Under the pieces are notes generated by a model. That model was given only the letters and a program-made list of their open reading frames with translations, had not been told where the DNA came from and made no database searches. Both the position numbers and the translations under genes were made by a program. 64,000 bases of DNA from Flavobacterium sp. Root420 (GTDB lineage Bacteria > Bacteroidota > Bacteroidia > Flavobacteriales > Flavobacteriaceae): the NCBI RefSeq assembly GCF_001427905.1, contig NZ_LMEF01000033.1, positions 1 through 64,000 of the forward strand, in the 5' to 3' direction. How positions within the stretch are numbered: position 1 is the first letter of the stretch; each line of letters starts with the position of its first letter. Shown here piece after piece: positions 16,878 through 27,548 of this stretch.

Positions 16878-18158
16878 ATGAAAGCACAATTACACGTTAC
16901 ACTTATTACACTTTTAAGCACTTTTTTTCTACAAGCACAACAACAGCCAAAAGGAATTATTGGCAACACCAACTGGATGAACAACTGGACTAATTTTAAA
17001 CCAGCCAGTGTCGAATATAACGAAGCTACCAACATTATCGCAGGAACTATTGATAAAGACACCCGATTAACAAAACGCAATACTTACCAATTGGTTGGTG
17101 TGGTTTATGTAACCAATAATGCTACTTTAACTATTGAACCCGGAACCGTAATTCGCGGTGACGATAAAACTTGCGGAACACTTGTTATAACAAATGGGTC
17201 TAAAATTATGGCTGAAGGCTTAGAAACTGATCCTATCGTTTTTACATCAAACAAAGAAACAGTAGAAAGAAAACCCGGAGATTGGGGAGGAATTATTATC
17301 CTTGGCAAAGCTCCTATAAATACACTTGGTGGTTTACATACACTACCTTTTGATCTGGAACCAATGTTAAATCATTACGGAGGTCAGGATCCTGAAGACA
17401 ATTCAGGAATTCTAAAATATGTTAGAGTTGAATATGCAGGTCGAAAACTAAGTTCACTAAAAGAACTTAACGGAATTTCGTTAGCAGGAGTTGGAAGAAA
17501 AACTGTTTTAAGTAATATTCAGGTTAGTTATTCAAATGATGATTCTTTTGAAAGTTATGGTGGAGATTTAGTTATGAACAACTTAATCTCATACCGAACT
17601 ACAGATGATGATTTCGATTTTACACAAGGCGTTCAATGCAATATAAGTAACAGTATCGCCATTCGTCACCCCTTCTCATCTGACGTTTCAGGATCAAGAT
17701 GTTTTGAAGTTGATTCTTATGATAAAATTGGAAATACCGATATGAGCAAGAAATTGACTAAAATTGATGCGACCAATATTACTTTGGTAAATCTCGAAGA
17801 AAACAGTCAGGGACTGGTTAGAGAATCTGTTTATGTTAGGGAGAACACGTACTTTAATTTATCAAATAGTATCATTTCAGGCTTTACTCCCTTTGTTTTA
17901 TTAGAAGGGAATATTGGAGATGGTGATGTTAATTTATCTAAAATAACATTCAAAAACCTTGTAATTAACAATTGTAATGGCGGAATTACAAGCGAATCCG
18001 GAAGCGGAAATCCATCAATTCAAAAATTTTATGGAAATCCAATATTCTTTTTAGATTATACCAGACTTAAAAACAGCGAACTGTTCTCAATGCCTAATAT
18101 TAAAGGGAATCCAGACTTCAGAATGAATGTAAACAACACGCTTGCTATTGGAAATTAA
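16878..18158 (+). CDS. Secreted protein, probable right-handed beta-helix
   Basis: 426 residues with a signal peptide (MKAQLHVTLITLLSTFFLQAQ). The body shows repeated short strands and turns: VTNNATLTIEPGTVIRGD, GTLVITNGSKIMAEG, DWGGIIILGKAPIN, LKYVRVEYAG, YSNDDSFESYGGDLVMNNLI. This is the pattern of parallel beta-helix surface proteins of Bacteroidota, including the GTVIRGD phrase common in them. No C-terminal type IX secretion tag is evident. It stands alone between the MarR unit and the trp operon with its own promoter. Role unknown. Confidence 0.65.
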   Translation: MKAQLHVTLITLLSTFFLQAQQQPKGIIGNTNWMNNWTNFKPASVEYNEATNIIAGTIDKDTRLTKRNTYQLVGVVYVTNNATLTIEPGTVIRGDDKTCGTLVITNGSKIMAEGLETDPIVFTSNKETVERKPGDWGGIIILGKAPINTLGGLHTLPFDLEPMLNHYGGQDPEDNSGILKYVRVEYAGRKLSSLKELNGISLAGVGRKTVLSNIQVSYSNDDSFESYGGDLVMNNLISYRTTDDDFDFTQGVQCNISNSIAIRHPFSSDVSGSRCFEVDSYDKIGNTDMSKKLTKIDATNITLVNLEENSQGLVRESVYVRENTYFNLSNSIISGFTPFVLLEGNIGDGDVNLSKITFKNLVINNCNGGITSESGSGNPSIQKFYGNPIFFLDYTRLKNSELFSMPNIKGNPDFRMNVNNTLAIGN

Positions 18159-18256
18159 GGATTTAAAAACGATCTTTTCAGTTGAAATTTAACAAATTTC
18201 TAAATTAAGAAAAGATTTTTTTGAAATTTTATGTCTCCCATTCCAAATTACATTTA

Positions 18257-18264
18257 TATATTTG
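18257..18264 (+). promoter_or_regulatory. Promoter of the trp operon
   Basis: TAtaTTTG at 18257-18264 matches the -7 consensus and lies 18 bp before the leader-peptide ATG. Transcription would start near 18270, giving a very short lead into the leader peptide, as attenuation requires. Confidence 0.6.
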
Positions 18265-18282
18265 CCATATCAAAATAAGAAA

Positions 18283-18339
18283 ATGAAAACATTAATGAAC
18301 AATACTTGGTGGTGGAAGAATTTACGTCAAACGTCGTGA
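18283..18339 (+). CDS. trpL: trp operon leader peptide
   Basis: An 18-codon reading frame encoding MKTLMNNTWWWKNLRQTS, with three consecutive Trp codons (18307-18315). It ends 36 bp before the 5' arm of a strong intrinsic terminator, which is followed by trpE. A run of Trp codons in a tiny ORF between a promoter and a terminator ahead of trp genes is the hallmark of ribosome-mediated attenuation: stalling at the TGG codons when Trp-tRNA is scarce lets the operon be read. The peptide itself has no further role expected. Confidence 0.88.
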   Translation: MKTLMNNTWWWKNLRQTS

Positions 18340-18410
18340 ACAAAGCTTCCTATGGTATTGTAAAACTATAAATATAAAAGGCTTGTCATCACGACAAGCC
18401 TTTTTTTTTT
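18312..18410 (+). promoter_or_regulatory. trp attenuator (leader RNA with alternative pairings)
   Basis: Segment 1 GGAAG (18314-18318, overlapping the last Trp codon) can pair with segment 2 CTTCC (18346-18350). ACAAAGC (18340-18346), beside segment 2, can pair with GCTTGT (18382-18386 plus neighbours) in the 5' arm of the terminator, with one bulged base. A ribosome stalled on the Trp codons covers segment 1 and frees the antiterminator. A ribosome reaching the TGA at 18337 covers the antiterminator and lets the terminator form. The alternative helices are short; the terminator itself is certain. Confidence 0.7.
18376..18410 (+). terminator. trp attenuator terminator hairpin
   Basis: The arms AAAAGGCTTGTC (18376-18387) and GACAAGCCTTTT pair perfectly over 12 bp with a 5-base loop, followed by a run of T to 18410. 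It stands between the leader peptide and trpE. Confidence 0.92.
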
Positions 18411-18458
18411 GGTCAAAAGTAAATTGAAAATATTCTAAAAATTAAAAAACTATATACA

Positions 18459-19859
18459 TTGAAACCTTTTATACTCAACACACACTACAAACAAATTCTG
18501 GCAGACACCATCACGCCGGTAAGTATTTATTTTAAAATCAGAGATAAATTCCCAAATAGTCTATTATTGGAAAGTAGTGATTATCACGGAAATGACAACA
18601 GTTTCTCGTACATCTGCTGCAATCCAATCGCGACGATTAAAATCGAAAACGAAATCATTTCAAAAACTTTCCCTGACGGAACTACGGAGCAAATTGCTAT
18701 TGATGCTTCAACAAATATTCCGCAAGTAATTCAGGAATTTTCAAGTCAGTTTAAATCGGAGAAAAACGATTTTAAATTCATCAATAATGGTTTATTCGGA
18801 TACATTTCTTATGATGCCGTTCGTTATTTTGAGAAAGTTTCGATTGCTAAAAAAGACACTGCAACTTTAATTCCAGATGTTTTTTATGCGGTTTATCAAA
18901 ATATCATTGCTATCAATCACTTTAAAAATGAAGCATACATTTTTTGTCATAGTGTTGATGGAAAAAACAATATCTCAGAAATTGAGCAATTATTACAATC
19001 AAGAAATATTGCATCTTATAAATTTACCAAAGAAGGCCAAGGTTTCTCTAACTTAACCGATGAAGAATTCAAACACAATGTGGCTTTGGCTAAAAAACAT
19101 TGTTTCCGCGGAGACGTTTTTCAATTGGTTTTATCCCGTCGTTTTACGCAAGGTTTCAAAGGCGACGAGTTTAATGTTTACAGAGCTTTACGTAGCATAA
19201 ATCCTTCTCCTTATTTATTCTTTTTTGATTATGGAGATTTCAAAATTTTTGGGTCTTCGCCAGAAGCACAAATTATCGTAAAAGACAGAAAAGCCGAGAT
19301 ACACCCAATCGCAGGAACTTTCAAAAGAACCGGAAATGATGAACATGATGCGGTTTTAGCCAAACAGCTTTCAGAAGATAAAAAAGAAAACAGCGAGCAC
19401 GTTATGTTGGTCGATTTGGCCAGAAACGATTTAAGCCGAAACGGTCACGATGTAAACGTGGAGAAATACCGAGAAGTTCAGTTTTTCTCTCACGTAATTC
19501 ACCTGGTTTCTAAAGTTACAGGACATTTACACGACAAAGCCACAACAATGCAAGTGGTTGCCGATACCTTCCCTGCAGGAACTTTAAGCGGTGCGCCAAA
19601 ACACAGGGCCATGCAATTGATTGAAGATTATGAAAAAACAAATCGTAATTTCTACGGAGGAGCGATCGGTTTTATGGATTTTGAAGGAAACTTTAACCAC
19701 GCGATTATGATTCGAACTTTCTTAAGTAAAAATCACCAACTGCATTGTCAGGCCGGAGCCGGAATCGTTGCCAGCTCCGACGAAGAAAGCGAAATGCAGG
19801 AAGTTTATAATAAATTAAGAGCTTTGAATACAGCGCTGGAAATGGCGGAACAAATTTAG
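18459..19859 (+). CDS. trpE: Anthranilate synthase component I
   Basis: 466 residues from a TTG start; no ATG lies in frame between the attenuator and the first conserved residues. The chorismate-binding domain is clear: DEEFKHNVALAKKHCFRGDV near residue 202, SPEAQIIVKDRKAEIHPIAG, FKRTG, LVDLARNDLSRNG near residue 318, and TFPAGTLSGAPKHRAMQLIE near residue 370. The N-terminal region has the LLESSDYHGND stretch seen in feedback-sensitive TrpE proteins (the LLES element). With TrpG it converts chorismate and glutamine to anthranilate. It lies 48 bp after the attenuator terminator. Confidence 0.95.
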   Translation: MKPFILNTHYKQILADTITPVSIYFKIRDKFPNSLLLESSDYHGNDNSFSYICCNPIATIKIENEIISKTFPDGTTEQIAIDASTNIPQVIQEFSSQFKSEKNDFKFINNGLFGYISYDAVRYFEKVSIAKKDTATLIPDVFYAVYQNIIAINHFKNEAYIFCHSVDGKNNISEIEQLLQSRNIASYKFTKEGQGFSNLTDEEFKHNVALAKKHCFRGDVFQLVLSRRFTQGFKGDEFNVYRALRSINPSPYLFFFDYGDFKIFGSSPEAQIIVKDRKAEIHPIAGTFKRTGNDEHDAVLAKQLSEDKKENSEHVMLVDLARNDLSRNGHDVNVEKYREVQFFSHVIHLVSKVTGHLHDKATTMQVVADTFPAGTLSGAPKHRAMQLIEDYEKTNRNFYGGAIGFMDFEGNFNHAIMIRTFLSKNHQLHCQAGAGIVASSDEESEMQEVYNKLRALNTALEMAEQI

Positions 19860-19945: not shown

Positions 19946-20389
19946 ATGAAAAAAGCAATTTCAATTTTATTTTTAATCATTGGCGTTACAGCTTGTAATT
20001 CAGAAAAAAAAGAAAAGTCAATTGAAGGAACCTGGCGTTTGATATCAGCTGAAACGACAGAAAAAGATTCGACTTTCTCTACTTTCAATCCAAAAACAAA
20101 AATGATTAAAATTATAAATGATACCCATTTTGCTTTTTTCAATCATGATTTGAATAACGGGAAAGACAGCACAGCAGCAGTATTTTTTGGCGGAGGCGGA
20201 AAATATACTTTGAAAGACAGCGTTTACACCGAAAACCTGGAGTATTTCAATAACCGTCAATGGGAAAATGGGAAATTTGAGTTCGTCGTAAAAATCAAAA
20301 ATGATACACTAACTCAAAAAGGAATCGAAAAAGTAGAAAAATTAGGAATCAACCGAATTATTACAGAAAAATACGTTCGCGAAAAATAA
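19946..20389 (+). CDS. Lipocalin-like lipoprotein inside the trp operon
   Basis: 147 residues. The lipobox is visible as IIGVTAC with Cys17, followed by charged residues, so the product is a lipoprotein. After that comes SIEGTWRLISAE, the typical opening strand of lipocalin-like domains, and alternating strands ending in GINRIITEKYVREK. Proteins of this kind are frequent in Bacteroidota and mostly uncharacterised. It sits between trpE and trpG and is probably co-transcribed, but a role in tryptophan synthesis is not suggested by the sequence. Confidence 0.75.
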   Translation: MKKAISILFLIIGVTACNSEKKEKSIEGTWRLISAETTEKDSTFSTFNPKTKMIKIINDTHFAFFNHDLNNGKDSTAAVFFGGGGKYTLKDSVYTENLEYFNNRQWENGKFEFVVKIKNDTLTQKGIEKVEKLGINRIITEKYVREK

Positions 20390-20469: not shown

Positions 20470-21036
20470 ATGAAAAAAATATTAGTTATAGACAATTACG
20501 ATAGTTTCACTTATAATTTAGTGCACTATTTAGAAGATTTAAACTGCGAAGTTACCGTTTACAGAAACGATGAATTTGATATTGACGAAATCGCAACTTT
20601 TGATAAAATATTACTTTCTCCAGGACCAGGAATTCCGGATGAAGCTGGATTATTAAAAGAAGTAATTCAGAAATACGGGCCAACGAAAAGCATTTTAGGT
20701 GTTTGTTTGGGCCAGCAAGCAATTGGAGAAGTTTTTGGCGGAACACTTTCAAACCTTGATAAAGTATATCACGGTGTGGCCACAAATGTAAAAACGGTAG
20801 TTTCTGATGAAATTTTATTCGAAGGCTTAGGAAATGAATTCGAAGTAGGAAGATACCATTCATGGGTTGTTGATGCCAATTTACCAGACGTTTTAGAAGC
20901 CACTTCAATAGATGAAAACGGTCAAATTATGTCATTAAGACACAAAACATTTGATGTTAGAGGCGTTCAGTTTCACCCAGAAAGTGTTTTGACACCAAAA
21001 GGGAAATTGATCTTAGAAAACTGGATAAAAAGTTAG
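20470..21036 (+). CDS. trpG: Anthranilate synthase component II (glutamine amidotransferase)
   Basis: 188 residues. Class I glutamine amidotransferase with nucleophile C79 in GVCLGQQAIGEVFGG, oxyanion region LLSPGPGIPDEAG near residue 48, and the His-Glu of the triad in VQFHPESVLTP near residue 168. The RYHSWVVD stretch is also family-typical. It supplies ammonia to TrpE; in many bacteria the same subunit also serves aminodeoxychorismate synthase, which cannot be excluded here. It is separated from trpE by the lipoprotein gene. Confidence 0.94.
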   Translation: MKKILVIDNYDSFTYNLVHYLEDLNCEVTVYRNDEFDIDEIATFDKILLSPGPGIPDEAGLLKEVIQKYGPTKSILGVCLGQQAIGEVFGGTLSNLDKVYHGVATNVKTVVSDEILFEGLGNEFEVGRYHSWVVDANLPDVLEATSIDENGQIMSLRHKTFDVRGVQFHPESVLTPKGKLILENWIKS

Positions 21037-21105: not shown

Positions 21106-21510
21106 ATGATTACTATTTCAGATACAAAAGAAATCAACATTGAAGACATCTTGATTTTATACAAAGCCAACGAATGGAGTTCGGCCAATAAACCAAATGA
21201 ATTGTATAATGCTCTTTTAAATTCGGAGACCTTAATTACAGCATGGGAAGGAAAAAAATTAGTCGGACTTGGCAATGCGATTTCTGATGGATTTTTAACC
21301 GTTTATTATCCGCATTTATTGGTACTTCCGGACTATCAGGGAAAAGGAATTGGAAAATTGATCATGGATAAAATGCAGGAGAAATATGGTCACTTTCACA
21401 TGCAAATGTTAACCGCCGATGGAAGATCAGTTGACTTTTATAAAAAAAACGGATTTGAAAGAGCCGGAAAAACAGAACCTATGTGGATCTATCAGGGAAA
21501 TGAACATTAA
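21106..21510 (+). CDS. GNAT-family N-acetyltransferase inside the trp operon
   Basis: 134 residues. The typical GNAT core is visible: LYKANEWSSANKPNELYNAL, the strand ITAWEGKKLVGLGNAISDG, PHLLVLPDYQGKGIGKLIMD near residue 78 (acetyl-CoA loop QGKGIG) and VDFYKKNGFERAG near the end. The acceptor is unknown. It lies between trpG and trpD, flanked on both sides by CTTAG repeat leaders, and looks like an insertion into an ancestral trpGD pair. Confidence 0.85.
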   Translation: MITISDTKEINIEDILILYKANEWSSANKPNELYNALLNSETLITAWEGKKLVGLGNAISDGFLTVYYPHLLVLPDYQGKGIGKLIMDKMQEKYGHFHMQMLTADGRSVDFYKKNGFERAGKTEPMWIYQGNEH

Positions 21511-21595: not shown

Positions 21596-22588
21596 ATGAA
21601 AAATATATTAAATAAATTAATCAATCACGAAGTGCTTTCTAAAGAAGAAGCAAAAGACGTATTGATTAATATTTCAAGCGGAAATTACAATCCAAGTCAG
21701 ATTTCGGCATTTTTGACTGTGTTTATGATGCGCAGTATTACTATTGACGAACTTTCTGGTTTTCGTGAAGCTTTGTTGGAATTATGCATTCGCGTTGATT
21801 TATCAGCTTATAACACCATCGATTTATGCGGAACGGGTGGCGATGGAAAAGATACTTTCAATATTTCAACTTTAGCTTCATTCATTTCAGCCGGAGCGGG
21901 AATAAAAGTGGCGAAACACGGAAATTACGGTGTTTCGTCAATTTCAGGATCGAGCAACGTGATGGAAAAAATGGGAATTAAATTCAGTAATGATCCTTCC
22001 TTTTTAGAGAAATGTATCGACAAAGCAGGAATCTGCGTTTTGCACGCTCCCCTATTTCACCCGGCGATGAAAAATGTTGGACCAATCAGAAAAGAATTAG
22101 CGGTAAAAACATTCTTTAATATGCTGGGACCAATGGTAAATCCGTCGTTTCCACAAAATCAATTAGTTGGTGTATTCAATTTGGAATTAGCCCGAATGTA
22201 TGCTTATTTATACCAAAACACGGATATCAATTTCACCATTTTGCATTCGCTTGACGGCTATGACGAAATTTCTTTAACTGGTCCAACCAAAACGATAACA
22301 TCGCACATGGAAGGTATGTTGAAACCAGAAGATTTTGGTGTTCGTCTTTTATCTCAATCCGAAATTGAAGGTGGAAAAACAATCGAGGAATCAGCAGAAA
22401 TGTTCATTAACATTATTTCAGGAAAAGGAACAGAAGCTCAAAACAATGTGGTTCTGGCCAACGCCGCAATGGCAATTGCAACGGTTACAAAATGTTCCCC
22501 GCTGGAAGGATTTGAATTGGCGAAAGAAAGTTTATTTTCTGGAAAAGGCCTAAAGGCATTACAAACATTACAGGAATTAAGTAGGTAA
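21596..22588 (+). CDS. trpD: Anthranilate phosphoribosyltransferase
   Basis: 330 residues. Characteristic motifs: DLCGTGGDGKDTFNISTLAS near residue 77 (phosphoribosyl pyrophosphate binding), KHGNYGVSSISGSSNVMEKM, and RKELAVKTFFNMLGPMVNPS near residue 166. It transfers the phosphoribosyl group to anthranilate. Length and motif order match free-standing TrpD, with no TrpG fusion. Preceded by a CTTAG leader and followed by a CCTGAAA repeat before trpC. Confidence 0.96.
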   Translation: MKNILNKLINHEVLSKEEAKDVLINISSGNYNPSQISAFLTVFMMRSITIDELSGFREALLELCIRVDLSAYNTIDLCGTGGDGKDTFNISTLASFISAGAGIKVAKHGNYGVSSISGSSNVMEKMGIKFSNDPSFLEKCIDKAGICVLHAPLFHPAMKNVGPIRKELAVKTFFNMLGPMVNPSFPQNQLVGVFNLELARMYAYLYQNTDINFTILHSLDGYDEISLTGPTKTITSHMEGMLKPEDFGVRLLSQSEIEGGKTIEESAEMFINIISGKGTEAQNNVVLANAAMAIATVTKCSPLEGFELAKESLFSGKGLKALQTLQELSR

Positions 22589-22676: not shown

Positions 22677-23456
22677 ATGAACATACTAGATAAAATAATC
22701 TTCGATAAACAACGAGAAGTCGTTCTTAAAAAATCAATCATTCCGGTTTCGCAATTGGAAAGTTCTGTATTTTTTGGAAGAGAAACGATTTCTTTAAGTC
22801 AAAAATTGAGAACAAGTTCAACAGGAATTATTGCAGAACACAAACGTCGTTCTCCTTCAAAGTCAGTAATCAATCATACTTTTACGGTTGAAGAAGTTGT
22901 AAAAGGGTATGAAAATGCCGGAGCTTGTGGGATTTCAGTTTTAACTGATGGAAAATATTTTGGAGGTTCCTTAGATGATTTACTACTGGCAAGAGCGAGT
23001 GTGAATATTCCGCTTTTGCGAAAAGAATTTATAGTTGACGAATACCAGATTCTGGAAGCCAAAGCTTTTGGAGCCGATTTAATTTTATTGATCGCTGCAG
23101 TTTTAACGAGGGAAGAAATAAAATCATTATCAGAATTTGCAAAGAAATTAGGTTTAGAGGTTTTGCTTGAAGTTCACAATCAGGAAGAATTAGAAAAATC
23201 AATTATGCCGACTTTAGACATGATTGGCGTAAACAACAGAAACCTGAAAACATTTGAAGTTAGTCTGGATTTCAGCAAACAACTGGCAGGACAAATTCCG
23301 AATGATTTTGTAAAAGTCTCAGAAAGCGGAATCTCATCAATTGAAGCCATTTCAGAATTAAGGCCATACGGTTACACCGGATTCTTAATTGGAGAAAACT
23401 TCATGAAAACCGATAACGCGGGGCAAGCAGCTTTTGACTTTATTAGTCAGCTGTAA
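22677..23456 (+). CDS. trpC: Indole-3-glycerol phosphate synthase
   Basis: 259 residues forming one TIM barrel. Visible landmarks are IIAEHKRRSPSKSVIN near residue 50 (catalytic Lys), GISVLTDGKYFGGSLDDL near residue 83, LLRKEFIVDEYQI near residue 105, EVLLEVHNQEEL near residue 163, IGVNNRNLKTFEV and SESGISSIEAI near residue 216. It closes the ring to give indole-3-glycerol phosphate. The enzyme is monofunctional; TrpF is a separate gene 167 bp downstream. Confidence 0.96.
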   Translation: MNILDKIIFDKQREVVLKKSIIPVSQLESSVFFGRETISLSQKLRTSSTGIIAEHKRRSPSKSVINHTFTVEEVVKGYENAGACGISVLTDGKYFGGSLDDLLLARASVNIPLLRKEFIVDEYQILEAKAFGADLILLIAAVLTREEIKSLSEFAKKLGLEVLLEVHNQEELEKSIMPTLDMIGVNNRNLKTFEVSLDFSKQLAGQIPNDFVKVSESGISSIEAISELRPYGYTGFLIGENFMKTDNAGQAAFDFISQL

Positions 23457-23623: not shown

Positions 23624-24256
23624 ATGAAACTCAAAATATGCGGTATGAAATATCCTGAAAATATACTCGAAGTAGGTGCGCTCCTACCCGATTATATGGG
23701 ATTTATTTTCTGGGAGAAATCCGCTCGATACTTTAACGGAGAAATTCCCGAACTGATCGAAACCGTCAAAAAAGTGGGCGTTTTTGTCAATCAAAGTCCG
23801 GAAGAAATTCTGGATAAAGTAATTAAATATAAATTGCAAGCCGTTCAATTACACGGAAATGAAACTGTTGCATTTTGTTCGGAATTAAAAAAACAATTGC
23901 CAAAGAAAATCGAAATCATAAAAGCATTTTCTGCCGATAATGACTTTGATTTTGAAGTTTTAAAACCTTATGAAAGTGTCTGCGATTACTTTCTTTTTGA
24001 TACAAAAGGAAAATTACCCGGTGGAAACGGAACCACATTTGACTGGACCATATTAAAAAAATACAAGTCTGAAAAGCCATTCTTTTTGAGTGGCGGCATC
24101 GGAATCAATGAATTAAAAGCGATCGAAGAAATTTCAAAAACCAATTTACCTATTTATGCTATCGATGTAAATAGTAAATTTGAAATCGAAGCGGGGCTGA
24201 AAAACAAAAATCTATTTAGCAATTTCAAACGAAAATTTGATGTTGCCAACTTTTAA
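23624..24256 (+). CDS. trpF: Phosphoribosylanthranilate isomerase
   Basis: 210 residues. It starts MKLKICGMKYPENI, with the catalytic Cys of the KICG motif, and continues with YMGFIFWEKSARYF, VGVFVNQSPEEIL near residue 50, LQAVQLHGNET near residue 75, FDTKGKLPGGNGTTFDW near residue 125 (catalytic Asp) and FFLSGGIGINELKAIEE near residue 150. It isomerises phosphoribosylanthranilate for TrpC. trpB starts 12 bp after its stop. Confidence 0.95.
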   Translation: MKLKICGMKYPENILEVGALLPDYMGFIFWEKSARYFNGEIPELIETVKKVGVFVNQSPEEILDKVIKYKLQAVQLHGNETVAFCSELKKQLPKKIEIIKAFSADNDFDFEVLKPYESVCDYFLFDTKGKLPGGNGTTFDWTILKKYKSEKPFFLSGGIGINELKAIEEISKTNLPIYAIDVNSKFEIEAGLKNKNLFSNFKRKFDVANF

Positions 24257-24268
24257 ACTTTAAACGAA

Positions 24269-25450
24269 ATGAACTTTAACGTTAACGAAAAAGGATATTA
24301 CGGAGAATTTGGAGGAGCTTATATTCCCGAAATGCTGTATCCGAATGTAGAAGAATTACGTCAGAATTATTTAAAAATAACAAGCGAACCCGATTTTAAG
24401 GCAGAATTCGATCAATTGCTGAAAGATTACGTTGGGCGCCCTAGTCCGCTTTATTTTGCAAAGCGTTTATCTGAGAAATACAATACAAAAGTATATCTAA
24501 AAAGAGAAGATTTAAATCATACCGGAGCACATAAAGTCAACAATACAATTGGGCAAATTTTGGTAGCAAAACGTTTAGGCAAAAAAAGAATTATTGCTGA
24601 AACCGGCGCTGGTCAGCATGGTGTTGCAACCGCAACAGTTTGCGCTTTAATGGGCTTGGAATGTATCGTTTATATGGGCGAAATCGACATTGCGCGTCAG
24701 GCACCAAATGTGGCTCGTATGAAAATGTTAGGTGCTGAAGTTCGTCCGGCACTTTCGGGTTCAAGAACATTGAAAGATGCAACAAACGAAGCAATCCGCG
24801 ACTGGATTAATAATCCGGTTGACACTCATTATATTATTGGATCTGCAATTGGACCACATCCTTATCCGGATATGGTGACACGTTTTCAAAGTGTTATTTC
24901 AGAAGAAATAAAATGGCAGTTAAAAGAAAAAGAAGGTCGTGAAAATCCTGATTATGTAGTCGCTTGTATCGGTGGTGGAAGTAACGCAGCCGGAACGTAT
25001 TACCACTTTTTGCACGAGCCAGAAGTTGGAATTATTGCCGTTGAAGCTGCCGGGAAAGGTGTCGACAGTGGTCACAGCGCGGCGACAAGTAAATTAGGAA
25101 AAGTGGGTGTAATTCACGGTTGCAAAACCCTTTTGATGCAAACGCCAGACGGACAAATTACAGAACCGTATTCGATTTCTGCAGGTTTAGATTATCCGGG
25201 CGTTGGTCCAATGCACGCGCATTTGGCACAAACCGGACGTGGCGAATTTTTCTCTGTTACGGATGACGATGCGATGAACGCAGGTTTACAATTAACAAAA
25301 TTAGAAGGAATTATTCCAGCTATTGAAAGTGCGCACGCATTTGCGGTTTTAGATCAAAAGAAATTTAAACCAACTGATATTGTGGTTATAAGCCTTTCGG
25401 GACGTGGCGATAAAGATTTAGACAATTATATTGATTATTTTAAGTTGTAA
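24269..25450 (+). CDS. trpB: Tryptophan synthase beta chain
   Basis: 393 residues. The PLP lysine is K89 in NHTGAHKVNN; AETGAGQHGVATATVCALMG (near residue 111), CIGGGSNAAGTYY (near residue 232), SAGLDYPGVGPMHA and the C-terminal SLSGRGDKD are all present. It joins indole and serine to make tryptophan, channelled from TrpA. The trpA gene is not adjacent: two unrelated small genes and a 245-bp repeat region intervene. Confidence 0.97.
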   Translation: MNFNVNEKGYYGEFGGAYIPEMLYPNVEELRQNYLKITSEPDFKAEFDQLLKDYVGRPSPLYFAKRLSEKYNTKVYLKREDLNHTGAHKVNNTIGQILVAKRLGKKRIIAETGAGQHGVATATVCALMGLECIVYMGEIDIARQAPNVARMKMLGAEVRPALSGSRTLKDATNEAIRDWINNPVDTHYIIGSAIGPHPYPDMVTRFQSVISEEIKWQLKEKEGRENPDYVVACIGGGSNAAGTYYHFLHEPEVGIIAVEAAGKGVDSGHSAATSKLGKVGVIHGCKTLLMQTPDGQITEPYSISAGLDYPGVGPMHAHLAQTGRGEFFSVTDDDAMNAGLQLTKLEGIIPAIESAHAFAVLDQKKFKPTDIVVISLSGRGDKDLDNYIDYFKL

Positions 25451-25473: not shown

Positions 25474-25791
25474 ATGGAAAAGTTATTCTCTTACGGAACA
25501 TTACGGTCGAAAGAAATTCAAAGGCAGGTTTTTAATAGAATCTTAACCGGAACTCCAGACCAACTTTTAGGACATAAACTAAAAAGTCTTCAAATTGAAG
25601 AAGAATTTGGAATGGCAGATTATGTCGTGGTAATACCAAGTCCGGATCCATCAGACATTATACATGGTGTAGTTTTTAATGTTTCTGCTGCAGATTTAGG
25701 TAAAGTAGATTTATTTGAATCTAATGCCTATAAAAGAGTTGAGGTTACCCTGAATTCTGGAACAGTTGCCTGGATTTATATGGAAAATTAA
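25474..25791 (+). CDS. Gamma-glutamylcyclotransferase-like (AIG2) protein
   Basis: 105 residues. The start KLFSYGTLRSKEIQRQVFN carries the YGTLR motif of the gamma-glutamylcyclotransferase fold. HGVVFNVSAADLGKVDLFE near residue 68 and YKRVEVTLNSG follow, with Glu in LFESNAY as the likely general acid. Members cleave gamma-glutamyl or related amides; the substrate here is unknown. It lies 23 bp after trpB and 12 bp before a nitrilase-family gene, so the two amide-acting enzymes travel together. Confidence 0.82.
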   Translation: MEKLFSYGTLRSKEIQRQVFNRILTGTPDQLLGHKLKSLQIEEEFGMADYVVVIPSPDPSDIIHGVVFNVSAADLGKVDLFESNAYKRVEVTLNSGTVAWIYMEN

Positions 25792-25803: not shown

Positions 25804-26541
25804 ATGATTCTAGCAGCAGCGCAAACAAAACCAACACGAGGAGATATTGAAGCTAATTTAGCAGATCATTATCATCTTATCGGATTGGCTGTGCAAAACA
25901 GAGCACAATTAATCGCATTTCCTGAAATGTCTATTACAGGTTATGAAAGAGAAAATGCTCAAAAATTAGCTTTCAAAAAAGACGATTCACGGTTGGATTA
26001 TTTGAAACAATTGGCTTCTGAAAATAATATTATCATTATTGCCGGTGCGCCAATTCAAATAGAATCTGAATTGTTTATTGGAGAATTTGTTATTTCTCCG
26101 GACAATTCTGTTTCCATTTATACGAAGCAATTTTTGCATGAAGGCGAAGATGAGTTTTTTCAATCTTCATTTGATTATAATCCGATGATTACAATTGAAA
26201 ACAAAAATGTTTCGTTTGCAATTTGTGCCGATATTGACAATCCGCTGCACCCGGAAAATGCCTGCAAAAGAGCGACTGATATATATATCGCCAGTATTTT
26301 CTTTACACCAAACGGCATTCCGAATGCGTATAGCCATTTGCAAAGCTATGCTGAGAAACATAAAATGAATGTTTTAATGTCTAACTTCAGTGGTGAATCC
26401 TGGGGATATCCTTCAGCCGGACAAAGTGTTTTTTGGAATAACAAGGGAGAATTGGTTGGTCAAATGAACGATTCAGATTCAGGACTTTTATTGGTGGAGA
26501 ATAAAAACGATAATTGGACGAGTCGGATTGTGAAATTTTAA
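25804..26541 (+). CDS. Carbon-nitrogen hydrolase (nitrilase superfamily)
   Basis: 245 residues. The catalytic Glu-Lys-Cys triad is visible: E in AFPEMSITGYE near residue 42, K in YTKQFLHEGEDEFF near residue 108, and C in FAICADIDNPLHPENA near residue 141. It hydrolyses a non-peptide C-N bond of unknown substrate. A clear paralogue is encoded at 45098-45826 with the same opening (AAAQTKPTRGDIEANL here, AIAQIKPVKGDIPANI there) and the same LMSN...GE...S end section. It is embedded between trpB and trpA. Confidence 0.88.
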   Translation: MILAAAQTKPTRGDIEANLADHYHLIGLAVQNRAQLIAFPEMSITGYERENAQKLAFKKDDSRLDYLKQLASENNIIIIAGAPIQIESELFIGEFVISPDNSVSIYTKQFLHEGEDEFFQSSFDYNPMITIENKNVSFAICADIDNPLHPENACKRATDIYIASIFFTPNGIPNAYSHLQSYAEKHKMNVLMSNFSGESWGYPSAGQSVFWNNKGELVGQMNDSDSGLLLVENKNDNWTSRIVKF

Positions 26542-26742: not shown

Positions 26743-26769
26743 CCTACAAGGTTTTGGAAACCTTGCAGG
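26743..26769. repeat. Palindrome CCTaCAAGGTTT / AAACCTTGcAGG
   Basis: 12-base arms with one mismatch around a 3-base loop, 17 bp before the trpA ATG. It could affect translation of trpA or act as a weak terminator. Confidence 0.6.
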
Positions 26770-26786
26770 ATAAAAACATAAAAGAA

Positions 26787-27548
26787 ATGAACAGAATAAC
26801 TCAAAAATTACAAGAAGATAAAAAGATACTTTCTATTTATTTTTCAGCAGGATATCCTAACTTAAATGATACGGTTCAGATTATTCAGGATTTAGAAAAA
26901 AATGGCGTTGATTTAATCGAAATTGGTTTGCCTTTCAGTGATCCTTTGGCAGATGGACCAACAATTCAGGCGAGTTCAACAACGGCGCTTCATAACGGAA
27001 TGACGACGCAAATTCTTTTTGACCAGCTGAAGAACATCCGCGAAAGCGTAAAAATTCCGTTGATTATTATGGGGTATTTTAATCCAATGTTGCAATACGG
27101 AGTTGAGGCGTTCTGTAAAAAATGTGCTGAGATTGGTATCGACGGTTTAATTATTCCGGATTTACCAGTTGATGTGTATGCAGACGAATACAAAGCTATT
27201 TTCGAAAAATACGGATTAATAAATGTGTTTTTGATTACACCACAAACTTCAGACGAACGTATCCATTTTATCGACAGCGTTTCAAACGGATTCATTTATA
27301 TGGTAAGTTCGGCGAGTGTTACAGGTTCTCAATCTGGTTTCGGGAATATTCAGGAAAGTTATTTCGAAAGAATTGGAAACATGAATTTGAAGAATCCACA
27401 AATCGTTGGTTTCGGAATTTCAAATAAGGAAACTTTTAATCAGGCTACGAAATTTGCAAAAGGCGCGATTATTGGAAGTGCTTTTATTAAACATTTGAGT
27501 GAAAGTGGTTCTGGAAAAATTTCAGATTTTGTTGGAGCGATTAGATAA
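26787..27548 (+). CDS. trpA: Tryptophan synthase alpha chain
   Basis: 253 residues from ATG 26787 (MNRITQKLQEDKKILSIYF). An earlier in-frame TTG at 26754 would put coding sequence inside a hairpin and is less likely. Motifs: SIYFSAGYPNLND, VDLIEIGLPFSDPLADGPTI (catalytic Glu in LIEIG) and GLIIPDLPVD near residue 118 (catalytic Asp), then FIYMVSSASVTGSQSGF. It cleaves indole-3-glycerol phosphate to indole and glyceraldehyde-3-phosphate. Last trp gene of the cluster. Confidence 0.95.
   Translation: MNRITQKLQEDKKILSIYFSAGYPNLNDTVQIIQDLEKNGVDLIEIGLPFSDPLADGPTIQASSTTALHNGMTTQILFDQLKNIRESVKIPLIIMGYFNPMLQYGVEAFCKKCAEIGIDGLIIPDLPVDVYADEYKAIFEKYGLINVFLITPQTSDERIHFIDSVSNGFIYMVSSASVTGSQSGFGNIQESYFERIGNMNLKNPQIVGFGISNKETFNQATKFAKGAIIGSAFIKHLSESGSGKISDFVGAIR

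Follow-up and report, generated by a model that had tools for sequence, protein, structure and literature searches.

The window, i.e. the whole stretch of 64,000 nucleotides that was analyzed, carries a row of trp genes preceded by a compact leader region. As outlined in Table 1, this region comprises, from 5' to 3' upstream of the trp genes, the box TATATTTG, an open reading frame (ORF) of 18 codons, a hairpin region, a terminator and finally trpE. Non-trp ORFs are interspersed between the trp genes (19946-20389, 21106-21510, 25474-25791 and 25804-26541). The frame of trpE contains no ATG upstream of the TTG at 18459, and TTG is likewise the conserved start in 74 of 80 relatives, namely in 73 by direct count and in L132, where the match starts one codon later; the other six start with ATG. 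The closest named TrpE records originate from Flavobacterium and are at most 98% identical.

Table 1 Features of the leader region and of the trp genes in the window (positions are those of the window).
Feature	Position	Strand	Basis and remarks
-7 promoter box TATATTTG (TAnnTTTG)	18257..18264	+	sequence; 18 nt 5' of the leader ATG
Leader peptide ORF, MKTLMNNTWWWKNLRQTS	18283..18339	+	ATG to TGA; stop 18337-18339
Three Trp codons (TGG x3), proposed sensor	18307..18315	+	sequence; conserved in relatives
Stem 1, outer part	18299..18306	+	partner 18354-18361; minimum-energy fold; 80.7% of cells paired in 47 relatives
Stem 1, middle part GGAAG	18314..18318	+	partner CTTCC 18346-18350; minimum-energy fold; 66.2% of cells paired
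Stem 1, inner part TTTACG	18321..18326	+	partner CGTGAA 18335-18340; 95.1% of cells paired
Region 2, 5' half of the antiterminator, GUCGUGAACAAAGCUU	18333..18348	+	overlaps the stop codon; masked folding
Antiterminator 3' half (part of arm 3, terminator loop, start of arm 4)	18379..18395	+	masked folding
Intrinsic terminator hairpin	18376..18404	+	arm 3 18376-18387, loop 18388-18392, arm 4 18393-18404
T run of the terminator, ten T	18401..18410	+	sequence
trpE, TTG start	18459..19859	+	best family NCBIfam TIGR00564, 441.2 bits, below cut-off 517.7
trpG, likely in the controlled operon	20470..21036	+	TIGR00566 above cut-off
trpD, likely in the controlled operon	21596..22588	+	TIGR01245 above cut-off
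trpC, likely in the controlled operon	22677..23456	+	NF001377 above cut-off
trpF, likely in the controlled operon	23624..24256	+	phosphoribosylanthranilate isomerase models; best NF002295, 134.3 bits, below cut-off
trpB, likely in the controlled operon	24269..25450	+	TIGR00263 above cut-off
trpA, last trp gene	26754..27548	+	TIGR00262 above cut-off

The terminator hairpin is formed by 12 perfect pairs, five of them G-C, and closes on the loop ATCAC. An earlier note on this DNA had described a promoter, a WWW leader ORF, an antiterminator candidate and a 12-bp terminator with a T run before a trpE starting with TTG, and all of these elements were confirmed. Folding of the leader, likewise put forward there, gave for 18270-18412 a structure better than 200 out of 200 shuffles (z -3.98). 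Upon scanning both strands of the 64 kb exactly one leader-plus-terminator pair was found.

The box TATATTTG follows the motif TAnnTTTG, which is given as a Bacteroidetes promoter in PMC6414381. In the 120 nt preceding the WW codons this motif occurs in 170 of 177 related loci, versus 22 of 177 after shuffling (one shuffle each), these 177 loci having been collected in several, partly overlapping searches. A sigma-70-type scan yielded no site at the box, and four sites in the region versus 8.2 in shuffles.

The Rfam family RF01692 ('Bacteroid-trp') matches 18263-18387 with 74.1 bits (gathering cut-off 49) over model positions 1-131 of 131, and in agreement with a placement before a trp gene in Bacteroidota the match is followed by trpE (18459) and the further trp genes. 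It is the single RF01692 match in the whole 5.6-Mb genome of the window. With model R1, 11 matches were obtained in this genome at E <= 0.1, the second being the reverse strand of the trp terminator and nine others having E values of 0.01-0.09; models R1 and R2 (the latter based on 25 trp copies alone) also match plain terminators, as seen for the false loci L422 and L479 and for reverse-strand matches of up to 41.2 bits.

Conservation and reach of the trp leader

Relatives were picked from named genomes by TrpE alone, taking the best 80 of 578 loci, with 89-98% TrpE identity and nearly all of them carrying Flavobacterium in their titles. All 80 of these best-matching loci have, in the 450 nt upstream of trpE, a WWW leader together with a terminator. 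For a wider view a class sample was used, in which 91 of 295 genomes yielded TrpE, at 92 places, with E <= 1e-60. A strict scan, in which a leader had to start with ATG, to hold two or more Trp within five codons and to be followed by a terminator, recognized 70 of the 87 upstream stretches that were 250 nt or longer, versus three of 87 in the antisense control; the shuffle control gave a mean of 0.8 over 85 stretches, in a run that left minus-strand loci unturned and scored 58 of the 85. The 17 class loci failing the strict scan comprise five with a WWW leader that lack the strict terminator and 12 without a convincing leader.

When loci were picked by at least two Trp in five codons, 177 of 179 were retained and 173 of the 177 contain WWW. 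The spacing from the last Trp codon to the motif TCGTGA amounts to 18 nt in 163 of these loci and to 19 nt in two, eight (all with WWW, 8/173) having no TCGTGA within 60 nt and four being without WWW. Seven residues extend from the last Trp to the stop in 151 of the 177 trp loci. The Trp leaders of L400 and L428 apparently start with TTG, not ATG. In other classes of the phylum a Trp leader and terminator were scored at 12 of 35 selected trpE loci (L299-L333; antisense 0/35), of which L326 at least looks doubtful, and in family f18 this arrangement was found at none of three trpE loci.

RF01692 itself was detected in 78 of 121 genus genomes at E <= 0.001 (77 above cut-off) and in 42 of 395 genomes of a phylum sample, and it reaches its cut-off in 10 of the 70 class leaders having a Trp leader and terminator. 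Among the 43 genus genomes without RF01692 eight possess TrpE at E <= 1e-100, the remaining ones giving TrpE matches no better than 3.1e-48 or lacking any at E <= 1e-40. All eight of these TrpE loci carry a divergent Trp leader and a terminator, and the RF01692 cut-off is reached in 0 of 8. A Trp leader followed by a terminator is the usual arrangement before trpE in the class sample, well beyond the reach of RF01692.

Furthermore, RF01692 copies were located before trpB (L140, L142 and L143; L478 likewise, by model R2) and before trpD (L169 in genome G495, and L170). Genome G479 has two Trp attenuators, L251 before trpE and L170 before trpD. In L142 and L478 (genomes G058 and G076), both before trpB, the leader frame passes through TCGTGA and ends further on, and therefore the ribosome would not stop there.

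The hairpin of the window could in principle be an ordinary terminator of the upstream gene 16878-18158, accompanied by a chance ORF, as this upstream ORF lies on the same strand and ends 217 nt before the hairpin. Yet 1.02 Mb of DNA flanking the 80 relatives (both strands) contains 0 leader-plus-terminator pairs, the loop and region 2 are conserved, and the same unit stands before trpB or trpD elsewhere, which makes this explanation exceedingly improbable. A chance terminator with a chance ORF was rejected on the basis of the flanking DNA and of the antisense control.

T-box (uncharged tRNA) and TRAP are trp controls in phyla other than Bacteroidota, which speaks for considering another trp sensor of either kind, a T-box or a TRAP-like protein, with the ORF being coincidental. 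TRAP-regulated leaders carry series of GAG/UAG triplets, whereas 18270-18412 holds 0 GAG and 0 UAG triplets; no T-box is among the seven covariance-model matches obtained at E <= 1 for 18150-18500, and the WWW ORF is conserved at 80 of 80 best-matching trpE loci. A sensor of this type is thus hardly conceivable, and a T-box or TRAP site before trpE was rejected on the grounds of the missing T-box match and triplets. TRAP is described for Bacillales (PMC3766115).

Alternative pairings and the proposed switch

For the analysis of pairing, eight odd loci of the 177 were set aside and the other 169 were thinned to 53 at ~90% identity, six more divergent ones of which were left out, resulting in 47 aligned rows. 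In these relatives 98.9% of the terminator cells are paired, and one pair is changed on both sides in four sequences. Hairpin 1:2 shows 82.7% paired cells and 20 cells with changes on both sides versus 9.8 +- 2.5 by shuffle; counted by pairs, six exhibit a both-side change versus 4.1 +- 1.1, a value of six being reached by 51 of 500 shuffles. In the inner helix of stem 1 one pair is converted from U-A to C-G, on both sides, in nine of the 47 relatives. For the antiterminator 89.0% of the cells are paired, versus at most 48.5% when slid, and within the genus (47 rows) 0 cells are changed on both sides because its sequence hardly varies.

More distant loci were compared in a swap test with 55 class loci (thinned from 70), in which own pairs gave -11.38 kcal/mol versus -8.41 kcal/mol for swapped pairs. 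The own combination of region 2 with arm 3 and loop was better in 42 of 55 cases (Wilcoxon p 2.6e-6), versus p 0.82 for a control region, which shows covariation of region 2 with arm 3 among distant loci. The comparison of trpE upstream regions that the earlier note had proposed did not refute its reading, as the Trp codons and the terminator are kept in all 80 best-matching loci and in 70 of 87 class loci.

None of the 47 aligned relatives deviates from the motif TCGTGA. Among 159 leaders with an LR tail, 11 encode a peptide stopping at a TAG located two codons earlier, and since some frames thus end before the motif or run through it, TCGTGA is kept as RNA and not merely as a stop.

In order to mimic the translating ribosome, masked folding was carried out with the ribosome footprint blocked, on a transcript ending three bases into arm 4. 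With the ribosome on the Trp codons of the window arm 3 pairs upstream with P 0.67, and with the ribosome at the stop with P 0.18. The energy of the stalled state is -17.0 versus -7.8 +- 2.3 for 200 shuffled spacers, seven of which reach the observed P. A P of at least 0.5 was obtained for 78 of the 80 best-matching relatives when stalled versus one of 80 when stopped, and for 63 of 70 versus eight of 70 class leaders, whereby the stopped state leaves less RNA free to pair, which favors this contrast. Stalled-state energies with z <= -2 were found in 73 of 80 relatives and 40 of 70 class leaders (20 shuffles each). The antiterminator is larger than the previously suggested ACAAAGC, as GUCGUGAACAAAGCUU (18333-18348) can pair with 18379-18395. 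Folding of the full-length transcript at equilibrium gives the terminator throughout, whichever state of the window is considered and also upon masking of the Trp codons, and therefore the switch must be kinetic, with the antiterminator forming before arm 4 emerges.

The locus accordingly displays what characterizes a leader-peptide attenuator, namely a short ORF with WWW, an intrinsic terminator before the first gene and an exclusive antiterminator, which in silico (truncated transcripts and swap test) becomes available when the ribosome stalls and is covered when it sits at the stop. Computation has established the anatomy, the conservation and the mutual exclusion of the pairings, and we are highly confident that the element is a ribosome-mediated transcription attenuator of the trp operon. 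The same reading had been derived from the spacing before, and it is supported by masked folding, where arm 3 changes its predicted partner between Trp codons and stop.

From these features we infer promoter use, ribosome stalling, termination and the Trp response as follows. Transcription would start just 3' of the TATATTTG box, and a ribosome would initiate translation of the leader peptide. If charged tRNA-Trp is scarce, the ribosome would stall on the three Trp codons, thereby covering stem 1; region 2 would then be accessible for pairing with arm 3 and with the loop of the terminator, and RNA polymerase would continue into trpE. If Trp is plentiful, the ribosome would cover region 2 from its position at the TGA, arm 3 and arm 4 would pair and transcription would stop in the T run. 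Without any ribosome hairpin 1:2 would sequester region 2, again resulting in termination.

TnaC is a Trp-sensing arrest peptide, and in a similar manner the leader peptide itself might sense Trp, with the RNA following the arrest instead of simple codon stalling. The residues beyond the Trp codons are indeed conserved within the genus (NNTWWWxNLRQ), but among leaders with WWW and an LR tail L is encoded by TTA in 159 of 159 and R by CGT in 158 of 159, and the LR tail is accounted for by the RNA because the TTA/CGT letters form the inner stem. Furthermore, the peptides of the class differ and have the Trp run in common (e.g. MKTLMNNIWWWHSNSFQTRM and MNKTIYNNSWWHLTKVRQPDSFVILQH), and the lysine version described below retains the LR tail with changed sensor codons. 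An arrest peptide is therefore very unlikely, and codon stalling is preferred.

A probable lysine version before lysC

A chassis consisting of TTACG...TCGTGA, a spacer and a terminator with a TC[A/G]CGAC loop is shared, in some Flavobacteriaceae, between trp leaders and leaders before lysC. In genome G072 a second RF01692 match (46.2 bits, below cut-off) precedes lysC-lysA, and its leader reads MNTWIIKKGKKQYLRRTS. A search for the chassis pattern in the genus unveiled four places outside the RF01692 trp places, all of them Lys leaders before lysC. LysC of this type (E <= 1e-80) is present in nine of 121 genus genomes, the window's own genome having none, and all nine possess a Lys leader and terminator. 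In a family sample a LysC relative occurs in 73 of 199 genomes, with a Lys leader at two of 40 loci read. The Lys leader is hence not general for LysC, being absent from 28 of 30 family loci and from ten of ten more (for L449 judged by eye and by the lack of an R2 match).

The 11 lysine copies (L365-L373, L448 and L451) use mostly AAG as Lys codon. Model R2, in spite of its origin from trp copies, scores 50.9-84.3 bits on all 11 Lys loci, the best other match over 39 loci amounting to 41.2 bits (reverse strand) and to 31.4 bits among LysC loci without leader. From the last Lys of the run to the TGA all 11 leaders have seven residues, like most trp leaders. In the stalled fold the antiterminator is favored in 11 of 11 (P 0.55-0.71), the stop state giving P <= 0.37 in ten of 11 (0.51 in L367), and the energy z is at or below -2 in seven of 11.

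Over the 121 genus genomes R2 yielded 90 places at E <= 1e-4, comprising 79 trp places, nine lysC places, one chance terminator (G065:C18) and one reverse strand (G019). They were sorted by matching to loci read and to the 79 RF01692 places of the genus, 17 of these RF01692 places lying outside the loci read. No sensors besides Trp and Lys were found in the genus, as the places outside the RF01692 list were Lys, Trp (G076) or false. Among the chassis loci of the family 66 of 67 that were read, out of about 150 matches listed, carry a Trp (64) or Lys (2) leader. An Rfam scan of the nine lysC loci gave no match at E <= 0.01.

Compared with the trp leader of the window the lysC leader shares the tail and the terminator; it differs in KKGKK-like Lys codons, which replace WWW, and in the gene, lysC (with lysA behind it in G072). 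The trp attenuator is thus probably one copy of a modular switch, the same chassis with Lys codons in the Trp slot constituting a natural change of specificity to a lysine leader-peptide attenuator. The weakest link is the role of the Lys codons, as the purine-rich run may act only as RNA: it may pair as stem 1, and its codons are mostly AAG. However, codons -11, -9 and -8 encode K in all 11 leaders, with five AAA copies among the AAG (-10 and -7 vary), so that Lys codons as sensor are favored; the codon script accepted leaders with three or more K between codons -12 and -8, a filter that had not been applied when the nine leaders of the genus were first found. The lysine version suggests that evolution re-aimed the attenuator, changing little except the sensor codons. 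A literature search covering publications apart from their supplementary files returned no described lysine leader-peptide attenuator.

Comparison with known systems

RF01692 appears as a row of Table 1 in Weinberg 2010, marked as RNA and cis-regulation and not as riboswitch (PMC2864571). It resembles the window in its position before trp genes, its Trp-codon leader and its hairpin, but the RF01692 match stops at the end of arm 3 (18387), whereas arm 4 and the loop pairing with region 2 lie outside; this loop is conserved because region 2 pairs with it. In a 2019 paper on F. psychrophilum the RF01692 element before the trp operon is likened to the leader of E. coli, and RT-PCR is reported to place trpA and an elastase gene on one transcript (PMC6414381). 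Consequently, the trp switch is not new, the element having been discussed already in F. psychrophilum, a point on which the earlier note has to be corrected.

In the 2021 transcriptome of F. psychrophilum clues for leader-peptide attenuation before amino-acid operons were reported, and pheA and hisG were found to be preceded by structured 5' elements; the main text of this paper never uses the words tryptophan, trp, lysine or lysC (PMC9723704). The authors of a 2010 paper were aware of leader-peptide systems demonstrated in Proteobacteria and Actinobacteria only, prior to their own case from Firmicutes (PMC2965389), and a gamma-proteobacterial origin of amino-acid attenuators was suggested in 2013 (PMC3766115). 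What the present analysis would add is the reach of the trp switch within the class and the lysine version.

The E. coli trpL leader peptide contains adjacent Trp codons, and its transcript forms the pairings 1:2, 2:3 and 3:4 with the stop by region 2. The window is alike in the Trp codons of the leader, in the three alternative pairings and in the stop near region 2. It differs in having three Trp codons and in an antiterminator that extends across the terminator loop into the beginning of arm 4. A further difference from E. coli concerns the Shine-Dalgarno sequences. These are described as missing in flavobacteria (PMC9723704). Since such a switch needs a ribosome close behind RNA polymerase, it lends itself to testing directly whether transcription and translation are coupled in these bacteria.
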